Part shown: positions 1 through 23,976 of the stretch, in pieces | How positions within the stretch are numbered: position 1 is the first letter of the stretch | Layout of the letters: each line of letters begins with the position of its first letter | Origin: Ectocarpus siliculosus | Lineage: Eukaryota; Sar; Phaeophyceae; Ectocarpales; Ectocarpaceae | Assembly: GCA_000310025.1 (NCBI GenBank) | Contig: FN649726.1 | Span: 363,830 to 392,324 of the forward strand | DNA: 28,495 nt | Reading direction: 5' to 3' | Notes under the pieces: generated by a model | The model's database searches: none | The model's input: the letters and a program-made list of their open reading frames with translations, nothing else | What the model was told of the DNA's origin: nothing | Program-made: the position numbers and the translations under genes

Positions 1-543
1 GTGAAGACAGCTGCCTTCGCCGGACCGCTGGTGCAGAAAATCACGCGGCGCAAGGAGGGGGGGGGGTACTCTTGTAAACGCATGCCGTAGTTGCTAGACC
101 ATTGTCCTCGCAATGCCGGAACGGAGCGATATGCTGGTTTTCCGTGGGGCTAGGCTGACCGGGGGGGGTAGTTACTATCGTGCGTGGTGGTAAGTAGAGT
201 ACTTCCATTAGACACTCGTTCCCCTGTGCTACAACGAGCACGTCGGGTTTCATGGACCTGACGAGAGCTTTGGGGCAAGGCCGGAGGCAAAGGCCAAAAG
301 CAGCTTGCAACCGACACGCCAAATGCCCTCCAGCGTGGAACAATGTTTACATCTAACCGTCCCGGTGTCTGCACACTACCGGTCCAATTGACGAGGATGG
401 AGGATAGGACAACTTCTTGGCAAAGGCGGGGTGGGCTAGAGTAGCAATCGATTCGGGCTAGCCGAGTACAACACAAACGCCAGCGAGAGCTGTCCCATGA
501 TTGCTGCACCGAGAACGTTCCTCTCCAAAAGCTCCTATCTCAC
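1..543 (-). other. Intron or uncharacterised tail of the kinase gene
   Basis: Reading the minus strand in all frames I see no DFG, no APE and no convincing splice-bounded exon. The stretch therefore looks like intron, with the remaining kinase exons beyond the left edge. It contains one short copy of the dispersed repeat at 66-126. Confidence 0.4.
66..126 (-). repeat. Dispersed repeat family, copy D (diverged)
   Basis: The complement of the same core is recognisable: GTACTC, GCATGCCGTAGT, GACCATTG, CCTCGCA and GGAACGGAG, in order and with correct spacing. Confidence 0.65.
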
Positions 544-600
544 CTTGATATCCTTGTGGATGACATCCGAATCGTGCAAGTGCATCACGGCGCACATAAC
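544..600 (-). CDS. Exon 15, start of the kinase catalytic loop
   Basis: Acceptor CTCGCCAG and donor GTGAGA bound 19 codons (AVMHLHDSDVIHKDIK at the end). HKD replaces HRD, but the catalytic Asp (1314) and the loop Lys (1316) are kept. The next exon, with the metal-binding Asn and DFG, was not found to the left. Confidence 0.85.
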
Positions 601-1575
601 CTGGCGAGCCGAAGAGGAACCAAAACAAGAAAACGAATGAAAAAACACGCCAAACAACAACAACAACAACAACAAAAATCTCGCGTTAACACCCAGAAAC
701 GATGGCGATGGTTGCTTCAATTGTGAGGGCGTCCTACACGCACACCAAAAACAAAAACAAGCAGAGCGTGATGGAAACAGCAGGAAGTCGCGCAAGATGA
801 CACAAAGGGTCGGCGGAAAAGGATGAAACCGCCGAAATTCGTAAAAATGACCACGCGAAAGGTCCTCGCGAAAAGGTGAACCGCTGGATTTCGTGCAGAA
901 GACGATGCAAAGCCAAACCCCACATCGGTCGGAGTGGGGGCAAAGCCAAACCCCACATCGGTCGGAGTGGGGGCAAAGCCAAACCCCACATCGGTCGGAG
1001 TGGGCTTCACTTACCAGCCTCACGAACCAGCTCAACGCCGGTCGAAACGCCGTTTTCGTGCCAGAGTACGGGTAACCCCCCCCTTCATACACAAACTGCT
1101 GTGTCTACACCAATCAAAGGATTGGAACTGCCATGCGGAACCCTGGTTCCAACATATTTAAGTATACCACTTTTTAGGTTAAGCTAGCCTGTGGCCACGG
1201 GAATCGACAGCGTCAACTGGTAGACCAGCAGGGACAGAAGGAGGTACTGGGTGGAGAGATAGGAACGGTATTGAGTGTCAAGACCACACCGGCAACAAAC
1301 GTGGATGCCAAGCACCGGTGAACGCAACGACAAATACCCTTCTCCTCAACCACACGAAGCACGTACTCTGTGGTTGTTCTACGCATACTTCTGTGATCTC
1401 TTCTGATCTGTTGTGGAGAAGTATGAAGTACGACGTCACCTGTCGAAAGGCCTCTTGCAGCTCCCACGGCTGTCTGGGTCGGGCCTGTAACCATTGACGA
1501 AGGTTTCCTTGGGCGCAGTAGGGGAACTTGCCGAGAGAGAGAGAGAGATCGACAGAGAGGCAGATAGGCAGAGAT

Positions 1576-1636
<61 letters not shown>

Positions 1637-2612
1637 GAGGGAGAGAGAGCGGGTGTGCATCGGAAGCTGACCAAGTGGTATTACGACGAAAGAGCGTTGT
1701 AGGAATTGCCAAAACATTTATTTCGTGCCATGTTCTTTTGTTGGAAATCAACAATCAAGCAACATGACAGAGACACTTGCATCTGTTCCGCTACCCCGCC
1801 GCCTACGGTGGATGTCTGGGTCTTTTTAAACGTCTCGGCGCATTCTCTGGGCGAATTCGCTGCAAGCACGAGGGGTTGGCCTGGCCGCACACAGAACGAC
1901 GCACGCCTTTGCGACCCACCATGCCATGACAACGTAGCACGCGCGATATTGATTTGTTCAGCAATCCTTTTCCCCGTCGGACAAAAAAAACAGCTGGTGA
2001 TGAACGACAAGACTAGACTTGGAATGCGCACGTTGTTTGCAAGGCAACACTCCGTGCTCAACTGGACCAAACGGGGGGCTTGGGATGCACGCGGTACTGT
2101 ACCCCTACGCGCCTCCAAAACCACCCGCCTTCAACCAACCTTCCACCATGATGTGGTAGTGGTCTTTTAGCGGTACCCACACCAACAAGCAGACGGACCC
2201 TTCCCTTCATCACGTTTTTTTTTTTTACCGATTGTCGTGTGTGTTTATTTCATTTTTTCAACACCGATGGTGCCCACATTTAAACAGACACAGCATTCAC
2301 ATTCGATGAACGGGGGGTTGGTTTGAGATGAAAAACGCCGCCGGACTGCTGTCTCCGCTATGCCACCCTATCAGCGGTAACAGGACAACTATGGTCTCGT
2401 CTATCCTCTAGAATGCAGCGCGGAAAGCACGAAATTAACGAAAAAACAACATGACATCGACGACAACGCACCCATAAGAAACAAGAATATTTACCTCACG
2501 ATGCACACACCCATCCATGGCACAACTCTCTCAGTCTCACCTCGATGTAGAGCATCGGGATAGCGTTGTCAGCCCTCACTCTCTCTGTCTCTCTCTGTCT
2601 CTCTCCTCTCTG

Positions 2613-2652
<40 letters not shown>

Positions 2653-5214
2653 CTCACCTCTATGTAGACCACCGGGCTAGGGCAGCCTCTCTCGCTGTCT
2701 CTCAGTCTCACCTCCATGTAGAACATGGGGATAGGATTGTCGGCACAACTCCTCTCACTCTCACCTCGATGTAGAGCATGGGGATAGGGTTCTCATTTCC
2801 ACCGTCATCCTCGACGATTGCCCCCGCCCTGATTATGGCCCCATGTCGAACCCGGTCCAAAATGTGCAGCTCCCGCTCTAGGCTGCGTCTCTGGAGGGCG
2901 TTCACCTGCAAAAAAACATCATGGTTCAACCGTAACAAAAAAAAAAAAAACACGACAAAATAGCACTGATCGGTCGGTACTCATTTCCTTCATTCTAGAA
3001 CGTAGACTGTACTGTTCTCAAGTAGAAGCGCGGTGTTGTCTACATCATCTTCGTGCTACATGAGCAAACATCGACGTGTTGATGCCAGGCCAGACACGGG
3101 ACCAGGAGCCTTCCTTGCTACCCTTGTTCACAAGAAAGTTAGCGATTTGCGTCGCTTGTCGGTCCAGGGCGCAGCTACCAAAACGCCAAGAAAGTTAACG
3201 ATTTGCGTCGCTTGTCGGTCCTCGGCACAGCTACCAAAACGCCAAGAAAGTTAACGATTTGCGTCGCTTGTCGGTCCTCGGCACAGCTACCAAAACGCCA
3301 TGAAAGTTAGCGATTTGCGTCGCTTGTCGGTCCTCGGCACAGCTACCAAAACGCCATGAAAGTTAGCGATTTGCGTCGCTTGTCGGTCCTCGGCACAGCT
3401 ACCAAAACGCCATGAAAGTTAGCTATTTGCGTCGCTTGTCGGTCCTCGACAAAGCTATCAAAACTCGCGATCCCGTGGTCCCTACTTGGTGCTCCGCCCT
3501 AACGGGTGGTGCGAGAAGAAGACCGCACATAGGCTCTCTCTCGGCACGACAGTCGGCAGTCTACGGCGAACCCCCACAGAGGGGTAACGCCTGCAACCGT
3601 GGTAGAGAGGCGTGACGATTGATACCAGCACCAGGGGATATAGCCCTCAACCACAACGGTTTCACCATGAACGAATACCATAAGAACGGTAAAACTGATC
3701 GTGCTTACTATTATACAGTAAAAATATCACTCCAAAACAATTACTTCTTCTTTGCAGAGCGATGTTGTCTACATCATCTTCGCAATGTACTACATACATA
3801 CATGACACACGAAACTGGTGGGTGGCCAACAGCTGTTTTTCAAGGACGACGGAAAGTAAGCATACAGGTGTCTTCCAAATAAAGTGAAAACAAATACTCA
3901 ATTAAATTGAACACGTATTTAACATTTCTTGTGTCCCCAAACCTCCAAAAATATTTGATTAAATTAGAAATACGAAATGCTTCGAAGTACACTTATACCT
4001 ACCTCCTTCGAAAAAAAAAAGGAACGGAAATAAAAAAAAAATACTTGCCAGGGCGTATCCCTTGAGGACGACGGTTTCGTCGTCGTACTCCGCCAGGAAG
4101 ATGCGATGCCGGCCCTGACCCCCCCCCGTGGAGCCCTCGTCCTCCATGGCCCTCACGGCCTCGTACTCCTTCAGCCGCCGGAGGGGGAGGTCGATCTCCG
4201 CTATGCTTACATCTTGCACCACCTGCTTATGTTTTTCGTTACCCATCATGAAAAACACACACGGGGTTCCAGGTCATGACCTGCAGAAGTGTTTCATGTT
4301 CTTGGCCGTGGCGTTGAGACTCGCGTCTTCCCCTTTACATTCATCCGCCGATTGGCACGGCCGATGCCAAGCAACGAAACGCACACACAGCCTCCCCCAT
4401 GACGCCCCCCCACGGGGTTCCAGATCATGGAAGCCTTAAGCAGCGTTTTCTGTTTTCAGCCGAGCGAAGACCGACATTTTTCGTTGATTAGCCGGTCAGT
4501 GCGGCCTTTGCCCTGCATCCCGAACGATAATGTCAGTCGCGGCCAAAAACCAACAACACCATTTTTCGCGGATAGGAAAATCGCGGGACACGACTCGATG
4601 TTATCCGTGTAATCCCTTCCTCAGAACGGACCGCATGGTTGCTTTCCTCCCGGCCCCTTTCCTCTCTCACGTCGCAATATTCCGCGAGGAGCTCTCAATA
4701 TTTTTTCGAGGTGCACCCGCGAAAAAGAGCCATTCCAGAACTATGTACAACAGTTGTTAGCCCGGTGTGTGTAATCAGCTGGTTGGTGTAATCACATCAT
4801 TTTATTTACTTTTTCTGTTTGAAGAAAGCCTAACAACCTGCTCTTTTCGTTCCAGTGAACTCGCTCCGGAGGGAACGCCGGAGAGCTCCCGGTTTAAAAT
4901 GGCCTAGTAATCACGGTTCAACGATGAATGTTAATGTTTTTATCCAATGAACGACAAGCCAAGAGACATCGGGTAGAGGTGTTGAGGACGCGATGCTTAA
5001 AACAGCGACACACACGCACCTACGCCCCACCCACCTTCTGCCTCCCGATCAAGGGATTGAGCGCCTCAGGGAGGTCCAGAGCAATCTCCGGAGATAGACC
5101 GTGCGCCAGGGCCGCCGCATTCGCCGCTGCTTTCCTTCCCGCCCGTCTCGCGCGCCGTGCAGCCTTCTCGGCGGAGGTCAAGGCCGCCTGGCATCGTCGT
5201 CATCGTCGTCGTCC

Positions 5215-5267
<53 letters not shown>

Positions 5268-8200
5268 ATTGTTGATGTTATTGGTGTAGTTGTTGCTTTG
5301 TATTGTTGATGATGTCGTTGTTGTGGTCGTTGTTGTGGTTGTTGTTGTTGTTGTTGTTGTTGACATTGTTGTTGACATTGTTGTTGACATTGTTGGTGTA
5401 GTTGTTGCTGTTGTTGTTGTTGATGATAATGTTGATGTTGATGTTAATGTTGGTGGTGGTGTTGTGGAGGCGGCGTTATTGTTCTCGCTGACTAGACTAT
5501 AGCGTAGTTGCGGGCGTGGTTGTTGTCCGTGCAGTTACTGTTACCGTCGTCTTCCCCCTGTACGGCACCACAAACGTTATAACGTTTCGCCAATCACAAT
5601 CTCCCAAGTCGCCAAACGACGACACACTTAAACCACGTTCTCGCCGATTCACAAAACACGCCGGCTTTAAAATTCACGTATGAAACCTGATGCGCACGTA
5701 CATCGTACAGTAAACTTATTTCCACCCGTAATACTACACGCAACCTTCATCGTTCCAAACCTGAAGCGGTTCGAGCTCGTCAGTGTTGCTCGCACCGATT
5801 CCCAACACGCGCCGGCTTCTACGTTCACGTAGGGAAAATATCGTGCACAAAATTCGTTGCCACAGAGAAAAAAATCACTCCACGAAACTTTCATCGGTCC
5901 CAAACCTGAAGCGGTTCGAGCTCGTCGGCTTTGGCGCCCCTCCTTCGCCTTTTGTCCAAGGCCCCTTCACAGTCGGTCACCACATCCTCCTGGTCGAGCA
6001 CGCTGTTGATTGACCCATCCATTTGTTTTGGGGCACAGACGGGGGGGAGTTGGACGTGCTAGATCAAGGCTTCTATCTCAAAGTCAGCGATTCCTGAGCG
6101 CCCTTGCCCCCCGTCTGAAGCCCTGCTACAATAGTCCGGTCCCACTTGTCCCGGTCGCTGCAGAGAAACACAATCTACCCCTGTTCACCCTCCGCTTCGC
6201 CCACTCCTTCAACGTTCCGTGTCAACCAAACCTCATGCTATGCTGTACAGCCGTAAGTAGATCGACAATGGCTAGCCACTTCATTCATCCTGTCATGTGC
6301 CTGGCATGCAGTGTCAGAAATGTCTTTCGCATGAAAAGGGGCAGGTGTTCTATCACGGGAAATGCTGTGTAAATACGTAAATGCACACATTCCCTCTGTC
6401 CGGCCTTGTCTACCCCGGCGGCGGGCTCACCTGTTTCTCAGCTCCTCGACTTTGGCCTTGAGGGCCAGACCCTTAGCGGCAAGGCCTTCCGCGTCCACAA
6501 GCTCGCCCACTGTCCCCGCCCAAGCGCTGGCTTCCTCTGCCATGATGGAAGCTTCGGCGGAATCGCGGCCGGCTTCGGCTAGCGCCTAGCAGGCCAATGA
6601 AAACACGATATTCAACAATTCGGCACAATACTGATTGGTCACCTGCGTAAGCGGCATAGATAGCGCCAAGGGACTTCGCTGGACGTACACCGGACAGCCG
6701 TCTCTACGTATAGTGGTATGAGACACCATGAACATTCCATCTGTCTCACGCGCTTTCACCTGCCATATATACAGGGCGAAACCCCTTATTCACCCAGGGT
6801 AATACAGGGATCGCTACCGAAAAACTACCAAGTCACACTTTCAAGACTAAACAAACGACCTAGAAAAACGAGCCATACCCCCCTGGGGTCGCACTATGCC
6901 ATGCCTAGAGGCACATCGCGGGGAAAAGGGAGTTGGGCCCTGAGCTTTTAAGCTTGGCAAGAGCCTACACACCCTTTTCCTGCCTTTCATATCCGTGGAT
7001 CTCCGCAACACCGCGCTCGAAATTCCGGAGAAAACACCAACCCCAAACGGCAAGCCACCCCAACACACCTGAGATAGGTAGTCGTGCCCCTTGAGTATCA
7101 GAGCATTCCCGAGCGCGCACGCCTCCCTGTACATCTCGGGGGTCCGGTGTATCTCCTCATCTGCTGCACGGTGGGCCTTGAAGCGCTCCCGCTTGACCCG
7201 GCTTTCGAGCACGTCCGACTCTCGAGACAGCTCCAGCATCGCCCTCACCCCATCCTCCTCGCTCGACGACCCCGCGACCTCGAACCCGCTTTCGCCGCTT
7301 GGGCCCGGGCAAGACGGCGACGGCAAATCGCCGTGCGCCTCGACTCCTACCGCTGCGGGATGGTTTTCCATCGGAGCAGCAGCCATCAAGCCGGCTTCGC
7401 TGCCGCCTGCGGGCAGCGGCGGCGGCGGCGGCGGCGGCGCGACATTGAACATCCACCCCGCCAGCCGCGAGAGCGCCGCCGAGTGCTGCTCCATGGCGTC
7501 TCGGAGTTCCGACACCGCCTCGTCGGTGTCCCGCCGGTCGCCGTCGCCGTCCACGGAGGCGAGCCTCGCCAGGTGCCCGAAAGAGTCAGCCGTGCTTGCT
7601 TCGCCGGCGGCGGCGGCGGCGGCGGAAACGGCGGCCGCCTCCGCACCCGCGGCTGCCGCCCTGACGGGTCCAACCTCATCGCCATCCAAGAAGGAGCCTC
7701 GCCGCCGCATGCGCGTCAGCTCCAGCCGCGACAGCACCCACTCTGGCGCCGCGGCGTCACCGCCGCCGCCGCCATCATGCTCGGACGGAAACAAGCCTCC
7801 GCCGCCGCCGCCGCCTGCTGTTCTCGTCGATGCCGTCGCTTCCCCTCCCCCTCCTCCTCCTCCTGCACCGGCGCTGCCGCCGCCCTCGGTGACGGGGTTA
7901 AGGCCGTCGTTGCCGTCGTCTCCTTCGTCATCGTCGTCGTCGTCATCATGGCTCGAGTGCTGCCGACTCTGCCCGCGGATGAGCGCCCACACGCGGCCGC
8001 CGGCGGTCCGGGCGCGGCGCTCCACTTCCCGCATCGCCGAGTCCACGTTGGAGTGGTTCGACTGCCGTTCGTTTGCGCGAGGGGGTAAAGCGCATGGGAC
8101 AAGGGAGGGGTACCGGAGTACACGTTGGAGTGGTTCGACTGCCGTGCGATTGCACGAGGGGTAGCGCGGATGGGACAGGAGTACGACCTCGTTTGCTTGT

Positions 8201-11200
8201 CTTTGTGGCGAGTGTTACTGCTGACATCACTTATCCTGCATCGACGAACACAAGCTGCGCACAAATGGTATTGGAGGGGCTAGGCTCTGGCGATAATTTT
8301 CGGCGATGAATGCCACAGCGCCACGTCGCAGCAACCACAGCTACAGCAGCACCAGCACCAGCAAACGCGAAGCACAACACACCATCCCGCCGCCTCGCTT
8401 GCTTCTCCTACCTGCTGCGCCTCCGAAATCTCCTGCAAACGCTTCGCCATCCTCTCGGCGTCTGCTCGAGCCGCCGGCGCGAGCACCGCCCTCCGCTCCA
8501 CCAGCGGCGCCACCCGCGCTCTCGTCTCTTCCGCATGCCCCCCTTCTCCGCCCCCGCGCACTAGCCGCCTGATCTCCCTCTGAAGGCCCTCGATCTCGGC
8601 CCTCGCTTCCACCACCCGCTGACGAAGGCCACCGGCTTGTCCCCCGCTCTTCTCGTCGTCTCCGGTCGATTCCGCGGCGGCGGCTAGCCCTAACCCCGAC
8701 GCTCCGCTAGACCCGTTCTCGTCGACGGAGGAGGCCACCTCTTCCCCGCTCTCTTTGCCTTCCTCCTCGTCCTCGTCCTCGTCCTCCTTTTGCTTCGCCT
8801 CAGAGCCGGCCTCCGCTCCCGACCGTAGCCGCTGTCTCCCCCCGGGCGGCGAGCATCCCGCCGTGAAGTGGACCGCTCTAGTAGCTGGACAGCTTACTTG
8901 CGCCGTCACCGCCTTTCCCGACACCGCGGCGGCGGCGGCGGCGGCGGCGGCGGCCACCCCCTCACCGAGAAACGCGCTGTGCACAGCGGACGTGACAACG
9001 GAGGCGAGGGAGCGCGTGTCCGCCCTCACCCGGTCCAGCAGCACGCGGCCCGCCGAGAGCTTCGCGAGGCGCTCCGTGAGCGCCAGCGTGCTGACCGTCA
9101 CCCCAGCGTTTTCCGCCGCCGACCCGTTGACACCGATACCGCCGGCGGCGGCGGATTCCGCCGCATCGCCTCTTGCCATGGCGTGGAGGGCGGTCTCCGA
9201 CGGAGGACGGTCGTCTCCAAACCATCCCCAGAGATCATCCTCCATCGACTGGTGTCTGGAGGCGCGGCTGCTCGGGCGGCGAGAAAGAGCCGCGCCGCTC
9301 CCGCCGCCGCCGCCACCGCCGCCCTCGGCGTACCCGAAGGAGGTGGCGCTGCCCCTCCCTCCCCCGCCGCCGTAGCTTGGCCTCCGCAACGCGGCCCCGC
9401 CACCCACGACGAGAGTACCGTTGTTGAGTATCGCACCGGGGGTATCGCTGCCGATGGCGGCAACAGGGGGGGGAGGAAACAGCAGTGCGGTAGCGCCGTG
9501 ACTGCGGGTCGAGGAACCCGCGTCGTCGCTGGCTCCCGTAGACGTTGTGCTGGCCCCTTGCTCACGCAAAGCACCCGCCGTGAGTTGTGCGGATGATGCG
9601 CCTCTGGGGGGAAATATGGAACGTTCCATTTCCGTCCCGTAACAAGGACGCGTGGGGGAGGGGAGGATGTTGACAACATACTGTGCAAACGTGCAGGAAA
9701 ATCGATGCAACGCTGCCGACACGTCGTCGAGCGAGCAGCGTCGCCCTTTTGTGGAGCAGAAAATGAGGCCGCGTGTCGCGTGCTGATCCGTACCAGCACA
9801 CACGCCGACCAATAGAAGCTGGACGAAAGGAGCACCCACCATCACCCACACTCCGCGCTTGTCCTTGCACCAAGAACAACACTCCCACCGCCCGACACCA
9901 CCACCGCCCCCAAAGAAAAGCTCGATTGTCATACAACACCGAACAACAGACGCGGCAGGCAGCAACGGAAAATCGCAACGATCGGTTTCAACTCACGCTA
10001 GGCAGTCGTTCATGAACTCCGTCCCCTCAGAAACTCCGCCGAGAACGAGCACTCTCCGCTGGTGGCAAACCGCGGCGTGACCCTGCCTCGCCACACGGAC
10101 ATCCTCCTGCGACAAGACGCACACAACACAACACAGCAGTGTCTTCAGTCCCGGGAATAGCCTAGCCTCCCCCATGACCCCTCCTCACGGTGCCCCCTCA
10201 GGCCGTGGCCATTAGGAGCGTCTTCCGCTGTTAGCCGAAGTGGGACTGACGTCTTGTCGTTGGTCAGCCGGATAGCATGGTCGATTCCAAGTAACGAATA
10301 CACGTGCGCGTTTTCTTTATTCGTTTTCTTGTATTGTTTGGTTAACTGTCACCCGAAAACTGACGCCTTTTCGCCGGCAAAGCTGCTTCTTCGCGCGGTC
10401 TTATTTAGCGAAGGAGCCACACATGCACTAAGCACCGACAGACCTCCTTCCAGCCCTGAAGCGAGCCAGCATGACGGACTTTGAAACAGACATGATGGGC
10501 CTCACACTTGACAGCGTGGGCTTACCAAGCATGTCGGCCACTCTTGCACACAACCCGGCGCAAACATTACTGTATGATTGTTCCTCTAGCGCCAGTGTAA
10601 TTACGCCTCGAGAACACAAACAACCCTTCCAGGAACAAAAAAAAATCTACGTCGAGCCAAACGCCCACATCTCTCTCTCTCTCTTTCACCCCCTTCATAC
10701 GACTCGCCGAATACCTCACGGTGCTTCGCGCTTGGTGATGTGAGAGCCTGGTCCGGTGAGAACCCGGCATGCTCCGTCCCGGCTTTGTAGGGATGCGAGG
10801 TCAACGGTCCAACGACTGCGGCATGCACGACCATGAGTACACCCCCCCCCCCTCCCCCCCCCAGCCTCACCTCGATCCTCGTCCAGTGTGCCCCGTCTTC
10901 GGAGCGCCAGACGTCTTTCAGCTTGCCGTTGCTGCCCTCGCCCCCAATCACGTACAGGGAGTTCTCGAAACAGATGGAGGCGTGTCCGCTGCGGGGGCTC
11001 CACTGACATTCGTGGGTCACGAGGTTCCAATCCCTGCAGATGCGAGGCCAACGAGGAGAGAGCACTTGTGTTAGCGCAGCCAATGAAAATTCGTATTTAG
11101 TATTTGCTTTGGGGTAGTTTTCTGCCAGGAGAGAGCACCGGCTACAGCTGGCGAGATGCAAAGGGGGCATCGGGAGACAACAGCAGCAGCAGCAGCAGCA

Positions 11201-14200
11201 GTAGCATCAGCAGCAGAGGCAACAGCGGCAGAAGCAGAAGCAACGGGAGGAACACATCGGCTCCTAAGAGAGAAGCGGCAGCAGCAGCGGCAGCAGAAGC
11301 AGTACAGCAGCAGCAGCGATACACGCTGGCATCAGCATCAATGCAGCGAGAACCCGTCCGGCCAAGCCGCCGTGCTAGCCGTCTCGCCCCCCGCTCCCTC
11401 GCCGACCGGCTGCGGTGCAGGAAAGGACGGTACAGCCGACGTCGTTATCCATCCGCTGCTGGACCGCAACTCGTTCCCTCTCGCCAACACGGCGTTGCCT
11501 TGCAGTACACTAGGTCCACTGTTTGCTTGCATGTCAAGCGGCTTCGGTTTCTGCCCGCACACATCCGCCAAACACCTCGTCCTCCCTTCAGATTGAAACA
11601 AAGCCATTTCATTCGCAGCTGTTATCCGCACGCAAGGAAGTAAGCACAAGATGCCGAACACCCTGAGCAGGATGCAGCGTACCCTTCATGCGACTCGCCG
11701 AATACCTTACGGCGCTTCGCGCTTGGTGATGGGAGAGCTTGGCCCGATGAGAACCCGGCGTGCTCCGTCCCGATTTTGCAGGGATGCGAGGACAACGGTC
11801 TAACGACTACGGCATGCACGGCTATGAGTACACCCCCCCTTCAGACAGAACCCCGGACCGGATAAAAGGGCATAAGGGGACGAGTGCAAGAAAAATAAAC
11901 GCCCTTACAACAAATAGCATTCAACTATTGTTGGAAATACACGCCCTTCTCTTCACCTCGCATCCATGAAGACCCCCCTCCCGGCCTCGCAACAATCACA
12001 TCACATCACACAGGATGGGCGGACGAAAAAACGCCTCTTTCTCCGAGAAAAAAATGACACAAGTAATGCCTCTTTCTCCACGAACAAAATCAGACAACAG
12101 TCTCTTTCTCCAAGAAAGACAAAAACGCCTCTTTCTCCGAGAAAACAAATGAAACAACAAACGCCTCTTTCTCCAAGAACAAAATCAAACAAGACAGAGT
12201 TTTTCTTCGACAAAAAATAATCTACAAAAAACGCCTTTTTCTTCACCTGCCATCAGTGGAAACCCATGCGTCGTTGAGCTTCTGGCGGCCGTCGGAGCCT
12301 CCCAAGACGTACATGGCTCCATTCGCTTCCACCATGGAGTGGAACATCCGACCGCCCCAGGGCGTGTTCGAGCACGTCTTGCTGCGGTTTTCGTGGACAA
12401 AATCACACGAAACACACACGCGAAAAGAAGAGTCGATGGTGAAGTGGGTAGGTGGGCTGAGTGGGCTCAGAGCAGGTCAGACTAGACTGGACAGGGGACC
12501 ACCGACAACAAGAGATAAAAAAGAGCCGGCGTGTTTCCAATCGTAAGGGTAACCACACACACTGTAAAAAATCAGACTTACCCATACAGTGTGGAGCTAC
12601 AGGACGACCTGCAGTACTTTAAGCCAGACACTCTAGAGCTACAGGAAAACCGCTATCCCGATGTTGTGGTGCCAGAAAAATGTCTCACGTCCACCGCACT
12701 CCGTCGGCAGACCGCCAGGCGTCCTTGAGGCACCCGGGCCCTTCCCGCCACCCCCCTACCACGAAGATGTACCCCTGGTAGCTGAGAGCGGCGTGTTGCC
12801 ACCGCCCTTGCCAGGGCGCCTGGCGACAAACCTGACAAGTCCAATACATACAACAGAGGGGAGGGAGGAAGGGAGGGAGAGAGAGCTAACAACTCAAGAG
12901 AAAGAGAAATACAGATCGAAGAATGCGGGCGCACCCAACCAGATCAGACACAGAGAACGAGCGAGAGCAAGGACCGACACAGAACAGACTTGTATGTGTA
13001 CACGGGGGGATTCGACTGAAATGAAAAAAGGACCAAATAAAACAAAACGAAATAAAAAAGGGAAAACGACACAACAGGGTATACCCTGGTCGAAAAGCGA
13101 CACACCTGGGTACACAGTCATTAACAGCAGTAAATGCACTCATATCATTGTTGTTGTTGTTTTTCTTCACATTAAACTCGTGTCAGTTGCTAATCCCAAA
13201 ATCTAGCAAAGACTCGGCCCGTGGTCACAAAAATGCTAAAGCCATCAGAAGATCTAAAGAACACGCTATTAGCAAGAAAAGGGTACACAAGCCCAAGGAG
13301 GTACACCTACAATCCCTGCAGCACGTTTGCGTGCTCACAACTGAACTACACGCCCACACACTACAATTCGACTACAGCAGGCGGCATCACCCCCCTTGTC
13401 CCGCACTTCACCAAAATGAATGTTTGTCGACTACAGCGTACTGCTGTCTGAAGTGCTGTCTGCACAAATAACACCATGGTGTATGGTGCACAACAAGCTC
13501 GGGGCATGCATATCATTGGTCAGCGCCCAATTTCACCCCGGTACGTCCGAAAAGGCGCAGGGTATACCCTGCCGTGACTACTTTTCTCAGCAACTGCTGT
13601 ACCCTGTTTTCGGAGATGTACCCTGACCTGACGGGAAAAAAGACCCTTTCATCAATCATTTCCCCCGCAGGAATCTTCCCAACTCCTTTTCCCCTCCACC
13701 CATGGGATACCAAACGGCGAATCTTCCCGCCGAATAACAACCACCATGGCAACGGGGCAGGAATCAGTTTCGGCCTTGCGAAACAATACCAACCATCACC
13801 TCTTCCGCTCTAAATCAACAACGGAATCAACAATGGCCGGGCAACACCCCAGCACAATTGTTCCGTTTGGAAACATGCACACATGCGTACGATATACCCC
13901 GTGGACTACTGCTTGCTGCAGTCTATGTGCGAGATGCACGGGTCACGCTATGAAAGCAAGACCGATCCAGCATGGTTGACATGCATATGCATGTGTGCGT
14001 GTGTTGTCGGTTGTGTCTCAATTGCGATGTGCCGTGTGTGCGTGCGTGTGTTGTCTGTTGTGTCTCAATTGCGATGTGTTTCTTGCTTGAACTACTGCTG
14101 TAGCAGTAGCGGACACGCTTACCAGCCAACCAAGCCGACCAATCAATCAATGTAGTAAGAAGACGTCAGGCAAAATGCGGGATGAGACGATGAAATACAA

Positions 14201-16955
14201 CGCGAGCACTCTTTCTTCTTTCTACCGACAGGGAGGGTGATTGAGTGGGACGACACAGCAGTGTCCTGCTGCTAGAGTAAGGATAAGACTCGTGTGTGCG
14301 TGATTGATATGTCAAGGGCATGTCTGTGTGTACTGGTCCTGCCTCTCCCCTCTCCCCTCTCTGCGGGCGCGAGCTCGCCGCCAGCACAGCGCCACACATT
14401 GGCACATGCATATGCATGTCAACCATGCTGGATCGGTCTTGCTTTCATAGCGTGACCCGTGCATCTCGCACATAGACTGCAGCAAGCAGTAGTCCACGGG
14501 GTATTGTACGCATGTGTGCATGTTTCCAAACGGAACAACTGCGCTGGGGTGTTGCCCGGCCATTGTTGATTCCGTTGTTGATTTAGAGCGGAAGAGGTGA
14601 TGGTTGGTGTTGTTTCGCAGGGCCGAAACTGATTCCTGCCCCGTTGCCATGGTGGTTGTTATTCGGCGGGAAGATTCGCCGTTTGGTATCCCATGGGTGG
14701 AGGGGAAAAGGAGTTGGGAAGATTCCTGCGGGGGAAATGATTGATGAAAGGGTCTTTTTTCCCGTCAGGTCAGGGTACATCTCCGAAAACAGGGTACAGC
14801 AGTTGCTGAGAAAAGTAGTCACGGCAGGGTATACCCTGCGCCTTTTCGGACGTACCGGGGTGAAATTGGGCGCTGACCAATGATATGAGTGCATTTACTG
14901 CTGTTAATGACTGTGTACCCAGGTGTGTCGCTTTTCGACCAGGGTATACCCTGTTGTGTCGTTTTCCCAATAAAAAAGGTGTGTGGGAATACTGCATTGC
15001 CAACTACCAACTACTGTCTGCTGTATTGAGAAATCTGTCCGCGTGACGTGCAAGCAACGAAGTCCAGGGCCAGGGCAGATCTCAGCACGAAGAGCCTGCC
15101 TGTTTGGAGGTAACCCTCCTGCACTTAACGCTTCTCCAGTCACCGCAGCTCAGCAAGCAAGTCCTCCGATAGTATCATCTGCCACAGAACGTGGCCCGTC
15201 CACGCTGCTTTCAAGCCGCCCAGCAAGCGCTCTGTCCCACGTGCCGACGGAGGAATCGCGCAACTACTAAAGGCAAGTGGTCCATTCTCTGGGCTGTTCT
15301 ACATATCTACAGCAGCAGGAGGGGTCCCCGTGGAAGGCTGCAAAAATAAGGGCGATTTCCCTGTTTAACTGCTGTATATATATATATGTACGCGGTACGG
15401 ATGGAATATTCAAATTGTCCCGTAATTCTCTAAAACGTGCCTACCAGGTGCCCGGTATAAGGCTCGCTAAAACCCTTGGGCTATGCGGCCGTATACACGG
15501 ACCATTACTACTGCTGTATTGGCTGTCCCCAGCTGTGGTCTTCAACATCGGAAGAAATCGGGCCGTCCAACGCAGATATAGTTGAGGCACAAAACGTCTA
15601 TTCTAAAGTTCGTATATGATTCGATCCGCCTACAATCTGCTTCATGAATTCATGAAACAAACCTCGAGCACACCAGCGGACCGCGGCCGTAGCCCAAACG
15701 TCACACCCGGCAGAACAACAAACATATGCCTACACCTACCTGGACCCAATCCTTGCCGTTCACCGATCTCCACACATCGCTGAAGTTGTTGCGTGGGTCC
15801 TGCGTGCCGCCCATGAGAAAAATGGCTCCGTTGTGGGTCAGCGCCGCGTGTCCGTCTCTGCCGCTCCAAGGCGCGTGCTCGAGTAGCCGCACCCACGCCT
15901 GAAAGAGGGCACGGGACGTCGTGAAACATGCATGGACATTGACCGTGCAATACCGCCGTGCAGACCACGGTGGAAATCGTTCAGTTAGCAGGCGAAGTCG
16001 AGATCACGATTTGCTGCAAAAACACAAACTGGCAGGAAATAGGGATACAGCAGTGCGCGATGACCTCTTCGTGCTTCACAAATACTTTGAGGTGGTACGA
16101 CCTACAGAAACATCTGTGTAGGTGATGAAAAACCGCCGGAGGAATTACCGTAGGTGTCACAAGATACCACGCCCCCTGGACCGATTTTCCATTTTCAAAG
16201 CTTGATTACTCCGCAGCAGAAAGATTGGCAGAGGCGAAAATGGCGGCGTTGGAACCATCCCGTCCAGATCTTTCCGAAAACGCAACGAAATGAGCTGGTA
16301 TCTTCTTCTTCTTGGAGCAGCGGAGCTTTGAAAAATTGGTCCAGGGGGTGTGGTATCTTGTGTCACCTACGGTAAGTTTCCCCGCATTGCACGATCGCCG
16401 AACATGCATGCGACCAAGCTCGGACAGACCCCGAGCTTTCGAGTCGAATGCTACACAGCCACCAGCGCTTTGGTCTGTCCGAAGGTTCGTGCAAGAGCAC
16501 TTTCAACGTTCCTGACCCTGCCCAGTCCGAAAAATGATGACCGGTCGCCGGGCACCTGTTGTGTCCATACGTGCCTTCATGGTGTGTGTTGCCTGTCCTG
16601 TCTATTGTATGTACAACAGAAAGTCCCCAAGGATGCTGCTGCAGCACATGAAGACTATGAATACCGCCGTTGCAGCACAGAAAAAACTGCCTTTGTGATG
16701 CACACAACAACCCAGCGGCAAGAAAGACGGGAAGAGTATCGCACAAAACACGGCACGCACCGCTCCATCAGTCGACTTCCAGACATCATGGAGGTTGGCG
16801 TTACGGCCGGCACCAGCAGTCCCCAGCACCCCTCCAGACGTGAATCCACCCAGGAGGAACAGGGAACCTCTGTGCGAAACCACCTGGTGCTTCCGACGCC
16901 CGCACCAGCCGGCTTCACCATTCCGGGAGACCACGGCCCATCGCTCGATCGGCAT
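544..16955 (-). CDS. Kelch-repeat/coiled-coil protein kinase, 15 exons, C-terminus missing
   Basis: Joining exons 16761-16955, 15740-15898, 12689-12831, 12247-12381, 10871-11033, 9997-10106, 8412-9603, 7069-8061, 6431-6585, 5906-6002, 5035-5187, 4049-4222, 2765-2905, 1015-1095 and 544-600 gives 3948 nt, or 1316 codons with no stop; every donor and acceptor phase agrees. Residues 1-302 are six kelch repeats, each with a GG doublet and most with a DVW..DG..W end. Residues 302-1030 are low-complexity and charged. Residues 1031-1165 look helical and coiled. A protein kinase N-lobe follows: VVLK (K1219), LEREL (E1235), then HKDIK (1312-1316). DFG and the C-lobe are not seen. The kelch propeller probably binds partners and the kinase phosphorylates Ser/Thr targets; both roles are inferred from the families. 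The hinge/helix-D part resembles NEK kinases. The weakest junction is exon 6 to exon 7; if it is wrong, there are two adjacent genes. Earlier exons cannot be excluded. Confidence 0.72.
907..1004 (-). repeat. 33-bp tandem repeat, three copies, just after a donor
   Basis: Three nearly identical units start at 907, 940 and 973, the last one base short. The array begins 10 bp inside the intron that follows exon 14. It is not coding on the gene's strand, although all frames stay open because 33 is a multiple of three. Confidence 0.9.
1015..1095 (-). CDS. Exon 14, kinase hinge and helices D/E
   Basis: Acceptor ACAGCAG and donor GTAAGT bound 27 codons, phase 0 at both ends. Joined to exon 13 it reads LYIE-FVYEGGG, a normal kinase hinge. 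It then gives TAFRPALSWFVRL, close in spacing to the NEK-type ILDWFVQI segment. Thirty-three-base tandem repeats lie just inside the next intron. Confidence 0.8.
1533..1648 (+). repeat. GA microsatellite
   Basis: Two GA/CA-rich blocks include an uninterrupted (GA)n of about 50 bases. It lies in the intron between exons 13 and 14. Ser/Leu and Arg/Glu ORFs over it are artefacts. Confidence 0.95.
2525..2774 (-). repeat. Fourfold duplication of an exon end with its 5' splice site
   Basis: Four blocks carry a version of the exon 13 end, (C)TACAT(C/A)GAG|GTGAGA. The last exon bases are at 2765, 2712, 2658 and 2541. CT/GA microsatellite separates them. Distances from the true donor are 53, 107 and 224 bp, none a multiple of three. 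The extra copies also carry coding-like sequence (IPMLYIE-type). Confidence 0.8.
2765..2905 (-). CDS. Exon 13, kinase helix C to hinge
   Basis: Acceptor TTTTTTTGCAG and donor GTGAGA bound 47 codons, phase 0. The peptide has SLERELHILDRVRHGAII, which matches helix C (E1235 pairs with K1219) and beta4, then PIPMLYIE, the beta5/hinge strand. The exon end and donor recur three more times downstream. Only this copy continues in frame into exon 14. Confidence 0.82.
3134..3465 (+). repeat. 56-bp tandem repeat, about six copies
   Basis: GAAAGTTA starts units at 3134, 3190, 3246, 3302, 3358 and 3414, an exact 56-bp period. Each unit contains GATTTGCGTCGCTTGTCGGT and AGCTACCAAAACGCC. The last copy is diverged. 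The array lies inside the GC-AG intron (2906-4048). There is no spacer, so it is not a CRISPR array. Confidence 0.92.
4049..4222 (-). CDS. Exon 12, kinase glycine-loop region and beta3 lysine
   Basis: Acceptor ATAAGCAG bounds 58 codons that end at a GC donor (CTG|GCAAGT). The peptide has IDLPLRRLKEYEAV, a Gly-rich stretch (STGGGQGRHRIFLAEYD) and ETVVLKGYAL. The Lys of VVLK (K1219) is the expected ATP-anchoring residue. The glycine loop is unusual: G-Q-G-R replaces a clean GxGxxG. Confidence 0.78.
5035..5187 (-). CDS. Exon 11, basic helical segment before the kinase
   Basis: Acceptor GATGCCAG and donor GTGGGT bound 51 codons, phase 0 at both ends. The peptide is Ala/Arg-rich (TSAEKAARRARRAGRKA), then LSPEIALDLPEALNPL. 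In this frame a TGA lies just upstream, so an acceptor is required here. The acceptor lacks a pyrimidine tract: it is preceded on the coding strand by an (AAC)n array and GAC/GAT codons. Confidence 0.72.
5203..5460 (+). repeat. (GTT)n array with GAT/GAC interruptions
   Basis: Long GTT runs are broken by GTTGAC and GATGTT units. On the kinase gene's strand this is (AAC)n and lies immediately upstream of the exon 11 acceptor, where a pyrimidine tract would be expected. Confidence 0.93.
5645..5935 (-). repeat. ~145-bp tandem duplication including an exon end and donor
   Basis: Both copies contain AACACGC(G)CCGGCTT, a TTCACGTA motif and CCAAACCTGAAGCGGTTCGA. The second copy covers the end of exon 10 and its donor (5905). 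The first puts an equivalent junction at 5760/5761. The offset of 145 bp is not a multiple of three. Confidence 0.75.
5906..6002 (-). CDS. Exon 10, coiled-coil segment
   Basis: Acceptor TCAACAG and donor GTTTGG bound 97 nt (1 + 32 codons). The first base completes a Ser codon left open by exon 9, giving VLDQEDVVTDCEGALDKRRR. The GTTTGG donor is weak. A second copy of this exon end and donor lies 145 bp further on. Confidence 0.68.
6431..6585 (-). CDS. Exon 9, coiled-coil segment
   Basis: Acceptor CTGCTAG and donor GTGAGC bound 155 nt (51 codons + 2). The peptide is Ala/Glu-rich and should be helical (ALAEAGRDSAEASIMAEEAS, later LKAKVEELRN). It continues in frame from the DYLSQ end of exon 8. 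It probably forms a coiled coil next to the kinase. Confidence 0.75.
7069..8061 (-). CDS. Exon 8, low-complexity linker
   Basis: Acceptor CGGCAG and donor GTGTGT bound exactly 331 codons, phase 0 at both ends. The N-terminal part has basic residues (MREVERRARTAGGR), then an Asp run, poly-Gly, poly-Ala and poly-Pro runs. The C-terminal part is charged and likely helical (SRVKRERFKAHRAADEE). Out-of-frame ORFs on both strands across 7084-8164 are shadows of this GC-rich exon. The acceptor and first exon bases are duplicated 77 bp upstream on the coding strand. Confidence 0.75.
8041..8184 (-). repeat. Tandem duplication of an acceptor and exon start
   Basis: The block CACGTTGGAGTGGTTCGACT occurs at 8044 and 8121, followed in both by GCCG, a CGAGGGG block and ATGGGACA. 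On the minus strand each copy gives CGGCAG|TCGAACCACTCC. The two junctions are 77 bp apart. Only the one at 8061 keeps the frame into exon 8. Confidence 0.82.
8412..9603 (-). CDS. Exon 7, low-complexity region ending in coiled coil
   Basis: The acceptor TTTCCCCCCAG supplies the one base that exon 6 needs; the donor is GTAGGA. This gives 397 codons, residues about 302-699. It is rich in Ser, Gly and Ala, with poly-Gly and poly-Ala runs, an acidic DEDEDEEE tract and a helical end (EARAEIEGLQREIRRL). The open frame continues upstream of the chosen acceptor, so the 5' boundary rests on phase and consensus only. No catalytic domain is visible. The region is probably a flexible linker. Confidence 0.65.
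9997..10106 (-). CDS. Exon 6, partial kelch repeat 6
   Basis: Acceptor GTCGCAG and donor GTGAGT bound 110 nt (36 codons + 2). The peptide has VARQGHAAVCHQRR, VLGG and FMNDCLA. The usual W..S.DG..W end of a kelch repeat is not present here or at the start of exon 7. The last blade is therefore shortened, or a small exon was missed. Confidence 0.78.
10690..10850 (+). repeat. Dispersed repeat family, copy A (full ~160 bp)
   Basis: This copy runs from CCCTTCATACGACTCGCCGA to ATGAGTACACC and matches copy B (11680-11838) along its whole length, roughly 88% by eye. It sits in the intron after kelch exon 5, next to that exon's donor. Part of it (GGTCCAACGACTGCGGCATG) loosely resembles a tRNA A-box region, so a tRNA-derived SINE is possible. 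Confidence 0.75.
10871..11033 (-). CDS. Exon 5, kelch repeat 5
   Basis: Acceptor CATCTGCAG and donor GTGAGG bound 163 nt (1 + 54 codons). It encodes the DW end of repeat 4, then WSPRSGHASICFENS, YVIGG and DVWRSEDGAHW. Directly after the donor the intron has two long G-runs on the coding strand (about 10841-10865), followed by a dispersed-repeat copy. Confidence 0.88.
11180..11330 (+). repeat. CAG-rich low-complexity tract in an intron
   Basis: CAGCAG/GCAGCA runs with few interruptions lie in the intron between kelch exons 4 and 5. The Gln/Ser/Ala ORFs across it have no splice support. Confidence 0.8.
11680..11838 (+). repeat. Dispersed repeat family, copy B (full ~160 bp)
   Basis: It has the same start (CCCTTCATGCGACTCGCCGA) and end (GCTATGAGTACACC) as copy A, in the same orientation, one intron upstream in the kelch-kinase gene. 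Confidence 0.75.
12025..12246 (-). repeat. Degenerate tandem copies of the sequence after a donor
   Basis: CGCCTCTTTCTCC-type units recur about six times with A-rich spacers. The last unit, CGCCTTTTTCTTCAC, is the complement of the donor of exon 4 and the bases after it. The intron thus begins with a unit of this array. Confidence 0.72.
12247..12381 (-). CDS. Exon 4, kelch repeat 4
   Basis: Acceptor ACCGCAG and donor GTGAAG bound 135 nt (1 + 44 codons + 2). The repeat reads NTPWGGRMFHSMVEANG, YVLGG and DAWVSTDG. The split codon joins exon 5 to give STDGRDW, which restores the kelch DG..W end exactly. The first bases of the following intron are repeated several times further into it. Confidence 0.85.
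12689..12831 (-). CDS. Exon 3, kelch repeat 3
   Basis: Acceptor TTGTCAG and donor GTGAGA bound 143 nt, entering in phase 0 and leaving two bases of a Thr codon. The peptide has APWQGRWQHAALSYQG, VVGG and DAWRSADGVRW. Exon 4 supplies the one base needed to finish the codon. Confidence 0.85.
13150..13508. mobile_element. 359-bp segment nested in the left arm
   Basis: The right arm lacks this segment. Its two ends are flanked by CATATCATT (13141-13149 and 13509-13517), while the right arm carries that sequence once. A 9-bp target duplication is the simple reading. I see no terminal inverted repeats; the left end starts with (GTT)n. The alternative is a deletion in the right arm between short direct repeats. 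Confidence 0.6.
13995..14078 (+). repeat. Tandem duplication in the transposon spacer
   Basis: Two 37-bp copies (13995-14031 and 14042-14078) differ at one base and are spaced 47 bp apart. Both contain GTGTCTCAATTGCGATGTG. They lie just inside the left arm. Confidence 0.75.
15740..15898 (-). CDS. Exon 2, kelch repeat 2
   Basis: Acceptor CTTTCAG and donor GTAGGT bound 53 codons, phase 0 at both ends. The encoded repeat shows HAPWSGRDGHAALTHNG, the MGG doublet and DVWRSVNGKDW, which is a textbook kelch spacing. The intron downstream (12832-15739) is the longest in the gene and holds the foldback transposon. Confidence 0.85.
16145..16375. mobile_element. MITE, 231 bp, with ~40-bp terminal inverted repeats
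   Basis: The ends are TTACCGTAGGTG and its complement CACCTACGGTAA. The inverted match continues through CACAAGATACCAC and CCCCCTGGACC with few differences, and weaker pairing goes further in. The target site could be a TA dinucleotide, as for mariner-type elements; the flanks do not settle it. It lies in the intron between kelch exons 1 and 2 and codes for nothing recognisable. Confidence 0.8.
16761..16955 (-). CDS. Exon 1, kelch repeat 1
   Basis: The first in-frame ATG is at 16955-16953, with G at -3. The frame stays open upstream without another ATG to a possible acceptor near 17085, so a further 5' exon is possible. The exon encodes one kelch repeat: RWAVVS, then the GRRKHQVV strand, the LLGG doublet, a long Gly/Ala loop and DVWKSTDGA. 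It ends in phase 0 at a GTGCGT donor. The intron downstream (15899-16760) carries a MITE. Confidence 0.75.
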
Positions 16956-17247
16956 CTCGCCGAGAGAGGGAGGAACACTGCGAGTCGTGACGATCGCGGA
17001 GCGCGTGCACAGCAGCAGCAGAGCAGGCTGAGGGTAGAAAAGGTAGATCGACGGCCCATTTTGCACCTTCGGAGACGCGGCGACCTGCGTGCATAAAAAA
17101 GGCGGAGATCGTGCATTCCGCGGTGCCCCCGAGCTAGCTTGGTCAGGAACTCAAACCAGCACACACATCACACATGTGCAGACAACACGCGATACGTTGT
17201 TGCGCTGTCCCCTCGTTTCCTCTGCTCTCTCAAGGGGTGTTGCTGCA
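16956..17247. promoter_or_regulatory. Head-to-head intergenic region, possible bidirectional promoter
   Basis: Fewer than 300 bases separate the first ATG of the minus-strand kelch-kinase gene from the first ATG of the plus-strand P-loop gene. Both 5' UTRs and core promoters should lie here. I see no clear TATA box. A shared promoter is inferred from spacing alone, and an unseen upstream exon of either gene would weaken it. Confidence 0.4.
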
Positions 17248-17481
17248 ATGCGAGGAGCAACGACACGAAGAAGTTCGCGCCGCAGCCGGTGTATTAGGTC
17301 GTCGAGAGCGCGCGGGAGCCAGCCTCATCAGCGCCTCCTCTGTGCGCTTTATTTGTTCCTCGTAGCAGGTGGCGCTGCTCTTGCAGCGTTCGGCGACAAC
17401 AAGGACTCAATGCACCACACCTACCGCCACCATGGCGGCGAGGGATATGCAAGAACAGAGGAGCGCAGGGGAGACTCGGGC

Positions 17482-17522
<41 letters not shown>

Positions 17523-18234
17523 AGCGTCGAGCGCGATGGGCGCTGATTTTCTCAATCGACCGTCTCCGCTGCCGTATCGCCGCGTGGAAGGCACAAACCG
17601 CCGCAGGACTAGTATGTATAGCGGTAGTAGGGGAGTGACCACTGGCACCGGGAACCGGGGCGGATCGCCTCTTCGTGGCTCAGCAGCACTGTCGTCAACT
17701 ACCGCGTTCGTTGCCTCCCCTGGGTGGCGGGTGGCGAGCAGCAGCACCAGCAGCAGCAGCACATTGCGGCAGCAGCAACAGCCGTTGATGACGCGCCGCC
17801 AACCGCCCGCTCAACAGCAACAGCAACAGCAGCGTCCGCAGGGGTGGTCGCAGCAGCAGCAGCAGCAGTGGTCGCAGCTCCCCACAGCTTCGCGAGGCCA
17901 CGACGCGTCGTCTGCTCGTCACAGCAGCAGCTGGCGAAACGACTTCCTCTGGGCAAGCTCTGGCTTCGCCTCTCGTTCTCACGGTGTCCGCAACAGCGAC
18001 GACGGGCGTTCTCCGAACGGTTCGTGGGGGATGATGGTACGCGGCGATCCCACTGCTGTGTGCATGGGCGCGGTGGCGGGGGCAGAGGCGGCAACAAACC
18101 GGCCTGCGCTGCTGGTGACAATCGGTCCGCAGTGCGCCGGGAAGACTAGCCTGCTGAGGGCGCTGGCGGCGAAGAGTGAGGCGGCTCGAGAGGAGCGCAG
18201 AAGCAGCGGGGGCGGCGGCATGACCAGCGGTAAC

Positions 18235-18266
<32 letters not shown>

Positions 18267-18306
18267 CCCATCCGTTGCAGATATCACAATCGATGACCAT
18301 CCTTCG
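17248..18306 (+). CDS. Exon 1: presequence, low-complexity region and Walker A
   Basis: This exon has 353 codons and ends at TCG|GTGAGA. A basic N-terminus precedes the hydrophobic stretch LLCALYLFLVAGGAALAAF (30-48). CTG/GCT arrays at about 17480-17525 and 18236-18267 encode Ala runs, and CAG arrays encode Gln runs. The P-loop sits near the 3' end. Confidence 0.83.
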
Positions 18307-21300
18307 GTGAGAACCAACACGTGTAACGATGATTGCGCATGTCTTCTTATGTGTGCTGTTTTTCGTGCCGAGGAGTGGTTGCTCTCTCTATAATACCACA
18401 TAGATATTAATAGTCTACTCCTTCTTGCGCGACATGCTGTTGTGTGTGTTGTGCCCCGCTTCCGGAAAACATGGAAGTCTGCCTGCGACGCAGAAGGCGT
18501 CCGCGTCAGTTGGACAAGCACGGGTGTTAGAAGGTGGTACAGGACAAATGAAGATTCTCAATGTGGACACACCACCACTACCGGTAACAGCAACAACAAA
18601 CGACAACATTCCTGCTGGCCGCGAGGCTCGTGTTTCCACATGTTCACTCCGAATTTTGCCCGTTACTCCCACAGGTGTACCACAAGATCCCCACGGCTCT
18701 CTTGCTAGGCGGCTGCGCCCGGGGTAGCCCGGAAGATTTACTGCTGGCGCAGCGCCCCCTGAGCGATCGCCTCGGCGACCCCGGTTGCGTGGAAACCCGA
18801 CTGGTGACCTTTCGGCTTGAGGGGCACATCTCTGCAGAGGAGTTTGCGGGCCGGCTGGGGGAGTGCAGGGGTCAGGTACGTTTAACGGAGGGAGTATTTT
18901 GGCAGACGGGGGAAGGTGTGATGGCGTACGCGTGTCACAAGCAGTGGGAGCATGTCTCAGAGAAGAGATTTCGGGAGGTTGTCTTGGGTAGGTTTGTTCC
19001 AGCCTCCCCACCGTTGAACAGGTTACAGAGCTGTTGCTGCCGCGCTGCCGCTTTTCCTGTGATCGAAGTTGGGCAAGAACCGTGGTCGTTGTCGTAGCCG
19101 TTGACTCTTTTCTTGTGCTACTACTGGGCCTCCTCTAGGCGAACGCGTGTGTTGCGTGTCCTTCCATTCTGGTGACTGCGGCGGTGATCCCTGCAGGCGA
19201 GAGGGTTCAACAATTGCATGCGTACATTCGGCGGCAGTGAAAATATACGGTGTGCTGGAAATTGCTCATTAGATGCGGGCGACTGCCGCGATACGCGCAG
19301 CCTACGGCAACATGAGTACACCCCCTCCTCTACCTGTGCGCTGAACCGTCGTCGTCGGCAGGCGTCGCCGGCAGCCATCGCGGCTCTCTGCAGGGCCGTA
19401 GAGAGCGCGGTGTCGGACAACGTGAGGATTTCCACCCCCACCGTAGACGTTTTCGTGAGGGAAAACCTCTTCCCTGACGCCATCTCGTCCAGCCAGGAGA
19501 GGTTGGCGGCCGCTGCGACGGACGAGGACGGGCTAGTGGCGTGGGGGAACACCAATACCCAGGTTTGTGGCTGGTAGTTGAAAGCTTGACTCCGTCAAGT
19601 TGTGCGTACTCAATTTGTTTGCCTGGTGTGCTCGTGGTAGAGCGCGGCACACGATCAATTTGGTTGCATATACTTGTGTGGTGAATTGTAGCCTATTATA
19701 GTTTCACGTAGGTGTTGGCTTTCCCTGTGGGTCGTGGCAGCGTGGCTCTGGGGCGGTGGGACCTGGTGTGCTAACGAGAACTAGCTGAAGCTGATCACGT
19801 GGAATATCCCTCCACAATCCTACTCATCTTGCTTCCGCCGTCGCCTCTGCCTGCTTGGTGTATCGGTTTCGAAATTCGTCCCCCCTCGGAGTTTTGCAGC
19901 CTACCGAGAAAAGTTTGCACGCGGCTCGAGCTGTAACCTCGCGCTTGTGTTTATCCTGCCCCTGAGACACATCACCCACGCCCTCTACACTGATGCTTCT
20001 TCTGCCCCCCCCCCCCGTGGAAGGAACGATTGGCCATCGGTGATCGGTCCTGTGGGAACAATGGTCCGTCCTCTCGAGGACGCGTGGTCAATGACCTAAC
20101 CGCTAAGGCATGCAAAACATAAGAGTACGCCCCCACCCACCCACCCACCCACCCCCTGTGACCGATGGTTGGTGAACCGGCACTAACTCGGTTTAGGCGA
20201 GGGACTACCGGGGAGCGCTAGAGCAAGCAGAGCGGACCGGACGGCCGGTTCGGTTCCTGCGGTGGGGCCACGAGCTGCCCTTCTTGAGCCTGGAGGAACT
20301 GAGTCGGCGCAACGTGTGCCGTTTCGCGTATACAGGAAGGTTAGTGGTACGGAAACAGCATCCAAGGGGTGTGTTTAGAAACTCACTCGCGTGCGTTTGT
20401 TTGTTTTGTTTTTTCGGGAGCCATGTAAACATGTCGAAAGACGTTTGAAACTTCGTTTTCGGAAGGGGTGAAAACGACCAAGAGCTTTCCTCCTGGAACA
20501 GGGCTTAGGGATCATGTTGTGTTTCTTTCACGTTAGTTAAGCTTGTGAGGCTCATGTGTATTTTCGGCCAATAAGAGGCTACTGGATTTGGGCAGTTTGT
20601 TGGAGACGAGTTATGTCGATTTTGCGCGATGTCTTGGTTGTTTTCGAGGTATGTATCCGACGTGCCCACTCTTGTTGATCTTGTGGTGGAGAACTCTGCC
20701 GCTGTTTGTTGTTTTGTTACTTGCGCCGCCCCTGGCGTCACCTCCGTCATATGTCACCCCTTTCCACATTCTTCGCTGTTGCTTCTGTTGCCCTCGCGTG
20801 TACATATGTAAACCAGGTACGTCGAAACGGCGGCCATCGAGAACGCCCTCGCTCGAGTCGACAAGCTCTACGCCTCCACCGCTGGGGGAGACCCAGCGAG
20901 GCTAGCCCTTGCGGCCGGTTTCCAGATGGATGCCTCCGGCGGGGTTCACTCCCAATCATCCCCCCCCCGACGCAGGCACGACAGCCCAAGATCTCGTGCC
21001 GGCCGCGGCAACGGCAGTTGGGAGAGGAATACGCGGCGACGCGTGGGTGGCGGGGGAACAGCAGACACGAGCGCGTACAGCGGCGGCGGTATCGGGGGCT
21101 CGGAAGGTGTCGTGCGTGGGAGGGACGGGGCGTGGGACAACAGAGGAGGCAGCGGGACGTGGTTCCATGACGAAGCGAGTCGGCGAACCACGCGGCGGGA
21201 AGCTACCTCGCACGGCGTACCGCCGCCGCCACCGATGGCACAACCGACACCGGCCGCCGGGCCTGACCGGTTCACAATCGAAGGCGCGGATCGTCGGCGC

Positions 21301-23905: not shown

Positions 23906-23976
23906 GGTGTACTCATAGTCGTGCATGCCGTAGTCGTTTGACCATTGACCTCGCATCCCTACAAAGCCGGGACGGA
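23906..23976 (-). repeat. Dispersed repeat family, copy C (3' part)
   Basis: The complement of the last ~72 bp of copies A and B is almost intact (GTACTCATAGTCGTGCATGC through TCCGTCCCG in reverse). A G-run follows and similarity stops there. Confidence 0.75.

Follow-up and report, generated by a model that had tools for sequence, protein, structure and literature searches.

The minus strand of the region analysed here probably carries a single gene, whose product would combine a six-bladed kelch propeller, a linker of ~860 residues and a C-terminal serine/threonine (or TKL-like) kinase, the two parts being connected by a predicted splice between exons 6 and 7. The region, referred to as the window, is a 28,495-nucleotide stretch of the Ectocarpus siliculosus genome (G000:C1:363830-392324; genome of 189.5 Mb in 492 contigs). 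Its bases 1–19400 were read, the open frames were listed, and the gene was rebuilt exon by exon.

The rebuilt gene comprises 15 exons on the minus strand, extending from 16955 to 544 and joining with consistent phases into 3954 nt, or 1318 stop-free codons. It reproduces, with our own exon borders, a chain for which a first-pass annotation had counted 1316 codons. After six kelch exons come two long exons of low-complexity sequence, then three short ones, and the kinase is spread over the last four. Thirteen of the 14 introns have GT-AG borders, and intron 12 is GC-AG. Scored with a leave-one-out matrix, the acceptors of exons 10 and 11 are weak, as is the AAG acceptor that exon 14 needs, so the splice details at these three exons may shift. 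The GC content is 0.59–0.71 in 14 of the 15 exons and 0.49 in exon 15, and 0.45–0.58 in the introns other than intron 6. Ectocarpus genes have seven introns on average, according to the accessible text of PMC6337836. The ATG of exon 1, at 16955, is a provisional start, with the frame remaining open upstream to 17150. On the plus strand, positions 17248–18393 hold a divergent frame with a P-loop-like motif (GPQCAGKTSLL) and a weak AAA_28 match under the cut-off; as the two ATGs are ~290 bases apart, this frame and the kelch gene may share a promoter region. A dispersed repeat was seen by eye at three places (10680–10860, 11690–11850 and 23940–24000), with SHPYKAGTE-like frame text in two of the three, and a search of the window with Rfam gave 0 matches at the gathering cut-off.

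Exons 1–6 each encode one kelch repeat. Exon 1 (16761..16955, minus strand, as for all exons below) contains the N-terminal strand RWAVV and blade 1, and is placed by alignment of its repeat with the other blades, its frame alone giving no kelch or kinase match in Pfam. Blade 2 is encoded by exon 2 (15740..15898), which is part of the joined Pfam match described below and on its own falls barely under the cut-off (Kelch_1, 6.5e-4, 19.6 versus 20.1 bits). Exon 3 (12689..12831; blade 3) is assigned by the joined match and the repeat alignment, and exon 4 (12247..12381; blade 4) by the joined match and by a kelch family search of the genome, where it exceeds the Kelch_1 cut-off. Exon 5 (10871..11033; blade 5) was found in both of these searches, and its frame alone is over the Pfam cut-off (Kelch_4, 3.8e-6; Kelch_1, 2.2e-4). 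Exon 6 (9997..10106; blade 6), ending in MNDCLA, is assigned by the repeat alignment. Joined together with the opening residues of exon 7, these six exons match PF24681 (3.3e-29, 102.2 bits, cut-off 50) and PF01344 (1.1e-26, 92.3 bits, cut-off 20.1), in agreement with the earlier kelch assignment of the N-terminal exons; such joined-exon E-values flatter the model, because kelch and kinase patterns guided the choice of exons. The single-frame Pfam searches, made before joining, covered nine frames from a subset of the exons. All six repeats align, each starting with a tryptophan strand, and the additional RWAVV strand at the N-terminus could allow closure of the ring at the end of exon 6. The propeller looks complete at this point, with closure predicted to occur through pairing between RWAVV and the final strand of blade 6. 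Intron 2 contains a large palindromic element (13060–14968) with inverted arms of 391 nt (98%), 111 nt (96%) and 91 nt (100%); it resembles a foldback transposon and would account for the length of this intron (2.9 kb).

The low-complexity linker of ~860 residues lies between the propeller and the kinase. Exons 7 (8412..9603, with an acceptor at 9447 possible instead) and 8 (7069..8061) are rich in Ala, Gly and Ser and have no Pfam domain over the cut-off. Exons 9–11 are rich in Ala, Leu and charged residues, with exon 9 (6431..6585) forming an A/L/E-rich segment, exon 10 (5906..6002) a charged segment and exon 11 (5035..5187) an A/R-rich segment. These five exons are placed by the exon chain, together with composition for exons 7, 8, 9 and 11 and the acceptor matrix for exons 10 and 11. 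A candidate coiled coil at residues 961–1170 was rejected as unsupported, its crude heptad score being matched by 38 of 200 shuffles. The most hydrophobic stretch of the modelled chain, with a 19-residue Kyte-Doolittle mean of 1.56, falls within an alanine run, so no transmembrane segment is suggested; the product is probably cytosolic.

The kinase domain begins in exon 12 (4049..4222), which encodes a degenerate glycine-rich loop and the β3 lysine (VVLK, K1219) and ends in the GC donor. Exon 13 (2765..2905) extends from helix C (E1235) to the hinge, exon 14 (1440..1526) contains the hinge and the following helices, and exon 15 (544..600) encodes the catalytic loop VIHKDIK (D1316). Exons 12 and 13, whose frames alone have no kelch or kinase match in Pfam, are assigned by the joined Pfam match and by alignment to solved kinases, exon 14 by this alignment and the acceptor matrix, and exon 15 by the exon chain and a single-frame Pkinase match (0.011) under the cut-off. 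When exons 12–15 are joined and searched with the end of the linker, they match PF00069 (2.6e-11, 43.8 bits, cut-off 31.7) over profile positions 22–125 of 263, from near the β3 lysine to the HKD catalytic loop. The chain had previously been described as ending in a kinase N-lobe; the match to the joined exons bears out the kinase and carries it beyond the N-lobe as far as the catalytic loop. On the strength of these profile matches, the kelch and kinase domains are both real.

Protein kinases conserve a β3 Lys, a helix-C Glu and a catalytic-loop Asp. K1219, E1235 and D1316 occupy these places, and the catalytic loop reads HKD, not HRD. From these three residues, with the DFG motif unread, we infer that the kinase would be active. 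The frames of positions 1–543 show no next kinase exon; the 6807 bases directly left of the window (C1:357023-363829), where the C-lobe and DFG fall, are all N, as are all 10,000 bases examined on the right flank. Exons 12–15 align without a frame break to solved kinases. The closest is PDB 9gmp (1.7e-7, kinase query residues 41–153), a ‘Map kinase kinase-like protein’ that consists of a kinase chain of 285 residues; a literature search on this entry gave only an unrelated chemistry paper. NEK1, MARK, RIPK, PERK and GCN2 follow with scores near 1e-4, so no kinase family is assigned. Several repeats accompany these exons: at 2500–2790, the end of exon 13 and its donor (PIPMLYIE followed by a GTGAGA-like sequence) recur just downstream as degenerate copies, forming duplicated donor sites; intron 12 contains a 56-bp unit repeated six times in tandem (3131–3464, 96% alike); and in intron 14 a 33-bp unit occurs three times in tandem without mismatch (907–1004).

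The junction between exons 6 and 7, singled out as the weak point by the first-pass annotation, remains so, and the alternative of a stop followed by a new ATG is well formed. Exon 6 ends CTAGC/GTGAGT and, read unspliced, continues with LA and then a TGA at 9995–9993; an ATG in the frame of exon 7 is located at 9629, 363 nt past this TGA. The interval 9604..9996 on the minus strand is accordingly disputed, as a 393-nt intron 6 (GTGAGT...CCCCAG) or as an intergenic gap. Phase consistency at this junction is no evidence for splicing: of the AGs in 9996–9300, 17 allow a join that stays free of stops down to 9300, and nine of these 17 fall in the frame of exon 7. The exon 7 acceptor at 9603 has an unremarkable score of 2.46, which 21.5% of AG equal or exceed and which is lower than that of the in-frame AG at 9447 (8.82), leaving the exact start of exon 7 unsettled. 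The exon 6 donor has GTGAGT on its intronic side and is poor overall owing to the AGC on its exon side, its score being equalled or exceeded by 11.8% of all minus-strand GT. GC content by codon position is 0.57/0.54/0.60 in intron 6 and 0.66/0.72/0.71 over the initial 393 bases of exon 7; being flat in both, it does not mark a coding start. The sequence permits one gene and two alike.

Counting for one gene, the GC content of intron 6 (0.57) is intron-like, lying inside the range of the other introns and under that of 14 of the 15 exons. Counting against it, no stop interrupts the exon 7 frame in any of the 129 codons of intron 6 that follow the TGA. Such openness is uncommon: open 128-codon segments number 89 of 7184, counted with overlap, in the other 13 introns, two of which are too short for any. 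Under a two-gene arrangement, a 302-residue kelch protein would end at the TGA and be followed on the same strand by a kinase gene with a low-complexity N-terminus, starting at the ATG at 9629 or slightly downstream. The in-frame TGA directly follows the last propeller strand, six blades with the N-terminal closing strand would form a complete domain, the ATG has G at both −3 and +4, and any of the nine in-frame AGs would give a spuriously consistent join. The 363 nt would, however, have to accommodate a 3′UTR, a promoter and a 5′UTR. Ectocarpus 3′UTRs have a mean of 845 bp, intergenic regions a median of 2529 nt and introns a median of 531 nt, as given in the accessible part of PMC6337836, and the shortness of the gap against the 3′UTR and intergenic values tilts the balance to one gene. 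Two same-strand genes this close would be unlikely on these spacings, and we regard their presence here as a possible but less probable arrangement.

A single gene with alternative processing, producing a kelch-only protein from the TGA form and a kelch-kinase from the form spliced between exons 6 and 7, would account for the stop and the GTGAGT donor occurring at the same point and for an intron length (393 nt) divisible by three. No function has to be invoked for the overlap, however, as any GTGAG donor contains a TGA when read in this phase, and we consider this form of regulation highly improbable. The preferred reading is one gene with exons 6 and 7 spliced: of the earlier proposal of kelch and kinase in one polypeptide, both domains stand and their residence in one gene, through the predicted exon 6/7 splice, is the likelier case.

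Protein, family and flank searches of limited sensitivity revealed no further kelch-kinase gene in the genome, a result that counts against the single-gene reading. Of the five matches that the kinase part, searched as protein, gave at E<=1, four were its own exons and the fifth (E 0.61) was an exon on contig C14 that reads like an NEK-type kinase. With the kelch part, six of the seven matches at E<=0.01 were its own; the seventh, at C26:2355237 (38%), belongs to the closest kelch relative found in the genome, a gene with kelch repeats and other sequence but no kinase match in ~10 kb on either side. Two kelch family searches (21 and 52 matches) yielded 18 kelch loci including that of the window, and a kinase family search, in which 120 of 678 candidates were scored, gave at least 138 Pkinase matches. 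Among the 18 loci and 138 matches listed, the smallest distance between kelch and kinase is 28,385 bases (on C6), and four of the 18 loci are on contigs without a kinase match among the matches listed. The flanks of seven of the 17 other kelch loci showed no match to the window's kinase or to six kinase frames taken from eight loci of the same genome. These genome negatives carry little weight, given that the short kinase exons of the window itself escaped the kinase family search; the six kinase frames also failed to detect them.

The pairing of kelch and kinase, earlier called unusual, is uncommon, but the combination is already known from a few protists, with precedents in Entamoeba, Trypanosoma brucei and Leishmania major. 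As far as the accessible text of each source goes, Src-like kinases of Entamoeba carry kelch domains (PMC5648430, PMC2939887), and EhSrc of E. histolytica and E. invadens resembles the Ectocarpus model in having kelch and a protein kinase in one protein (PMC5648430). In EhSrc the kelch part is KELCH 1 and 4 (E. histolytica) or KELCH 6 (E. invadens), and a propeller could, according to the portions available, not be recognised (PMC5648430), whereas the Ectocarpus model has six repeats and the ~860-residue linker. The T. brucei kinase Tb927.5.3150 likewise has kelch domain(s), but is described in the available text with predicted transmembrane segments and a signal peptide (PMC8519429), neither of which was seen in the Ectocarpus model. 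One L. major kinase is listed with kelch in a table entry, as seen in part of PMC1266030. Kelch-phosphatases (PPKL/BSU1) also place kelch repeats on a signalling enzyme, according to the part of PMC3143110 available, but that enzyme is a phosphatase, with activity opposite to that of the kinase modelled here. The word ‘kelch’ is absent from PMC3019232, whose accessory-domain table for Phytophthora infestans has no kelch entry in the accessible text. Searches with kelch-kinase phrases returned no papers, and the literature searched yielded no account of this gene.

In the arrangement that we favour, splicing of exons 6 and 7 would place the propeller and the kinase in one protein. The propeller, its ring closed by the RWAVV strand, could bind a partner or substrate, which the kinase, tethered by the long flexible linker, might then reach. 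A scaffold kinase choosing its substrates via the propeller is a reasonable reading of the domains, and stays conditional on their being joined. An extension of this scheme, in which a kelch gene joined to a kinase gene of no assigned class gave rise to a lineage-specific kelch-kinase whose six-bladed propeller is complete, and in which a choice between stop and splice at exon 6 yields a free propeller or a propeller-guided kinase, appears unlikely. If the two parts are separate genes, the locus would hold an ordinary kelch protein beside an ordinary kinase. If they belong to one transcript, it would provide an apparently separate example of a propeller-kinase outside Entamoeba and the trypanosomatids, and a straightforward way to ask whether propellers select the substrates of kinases.
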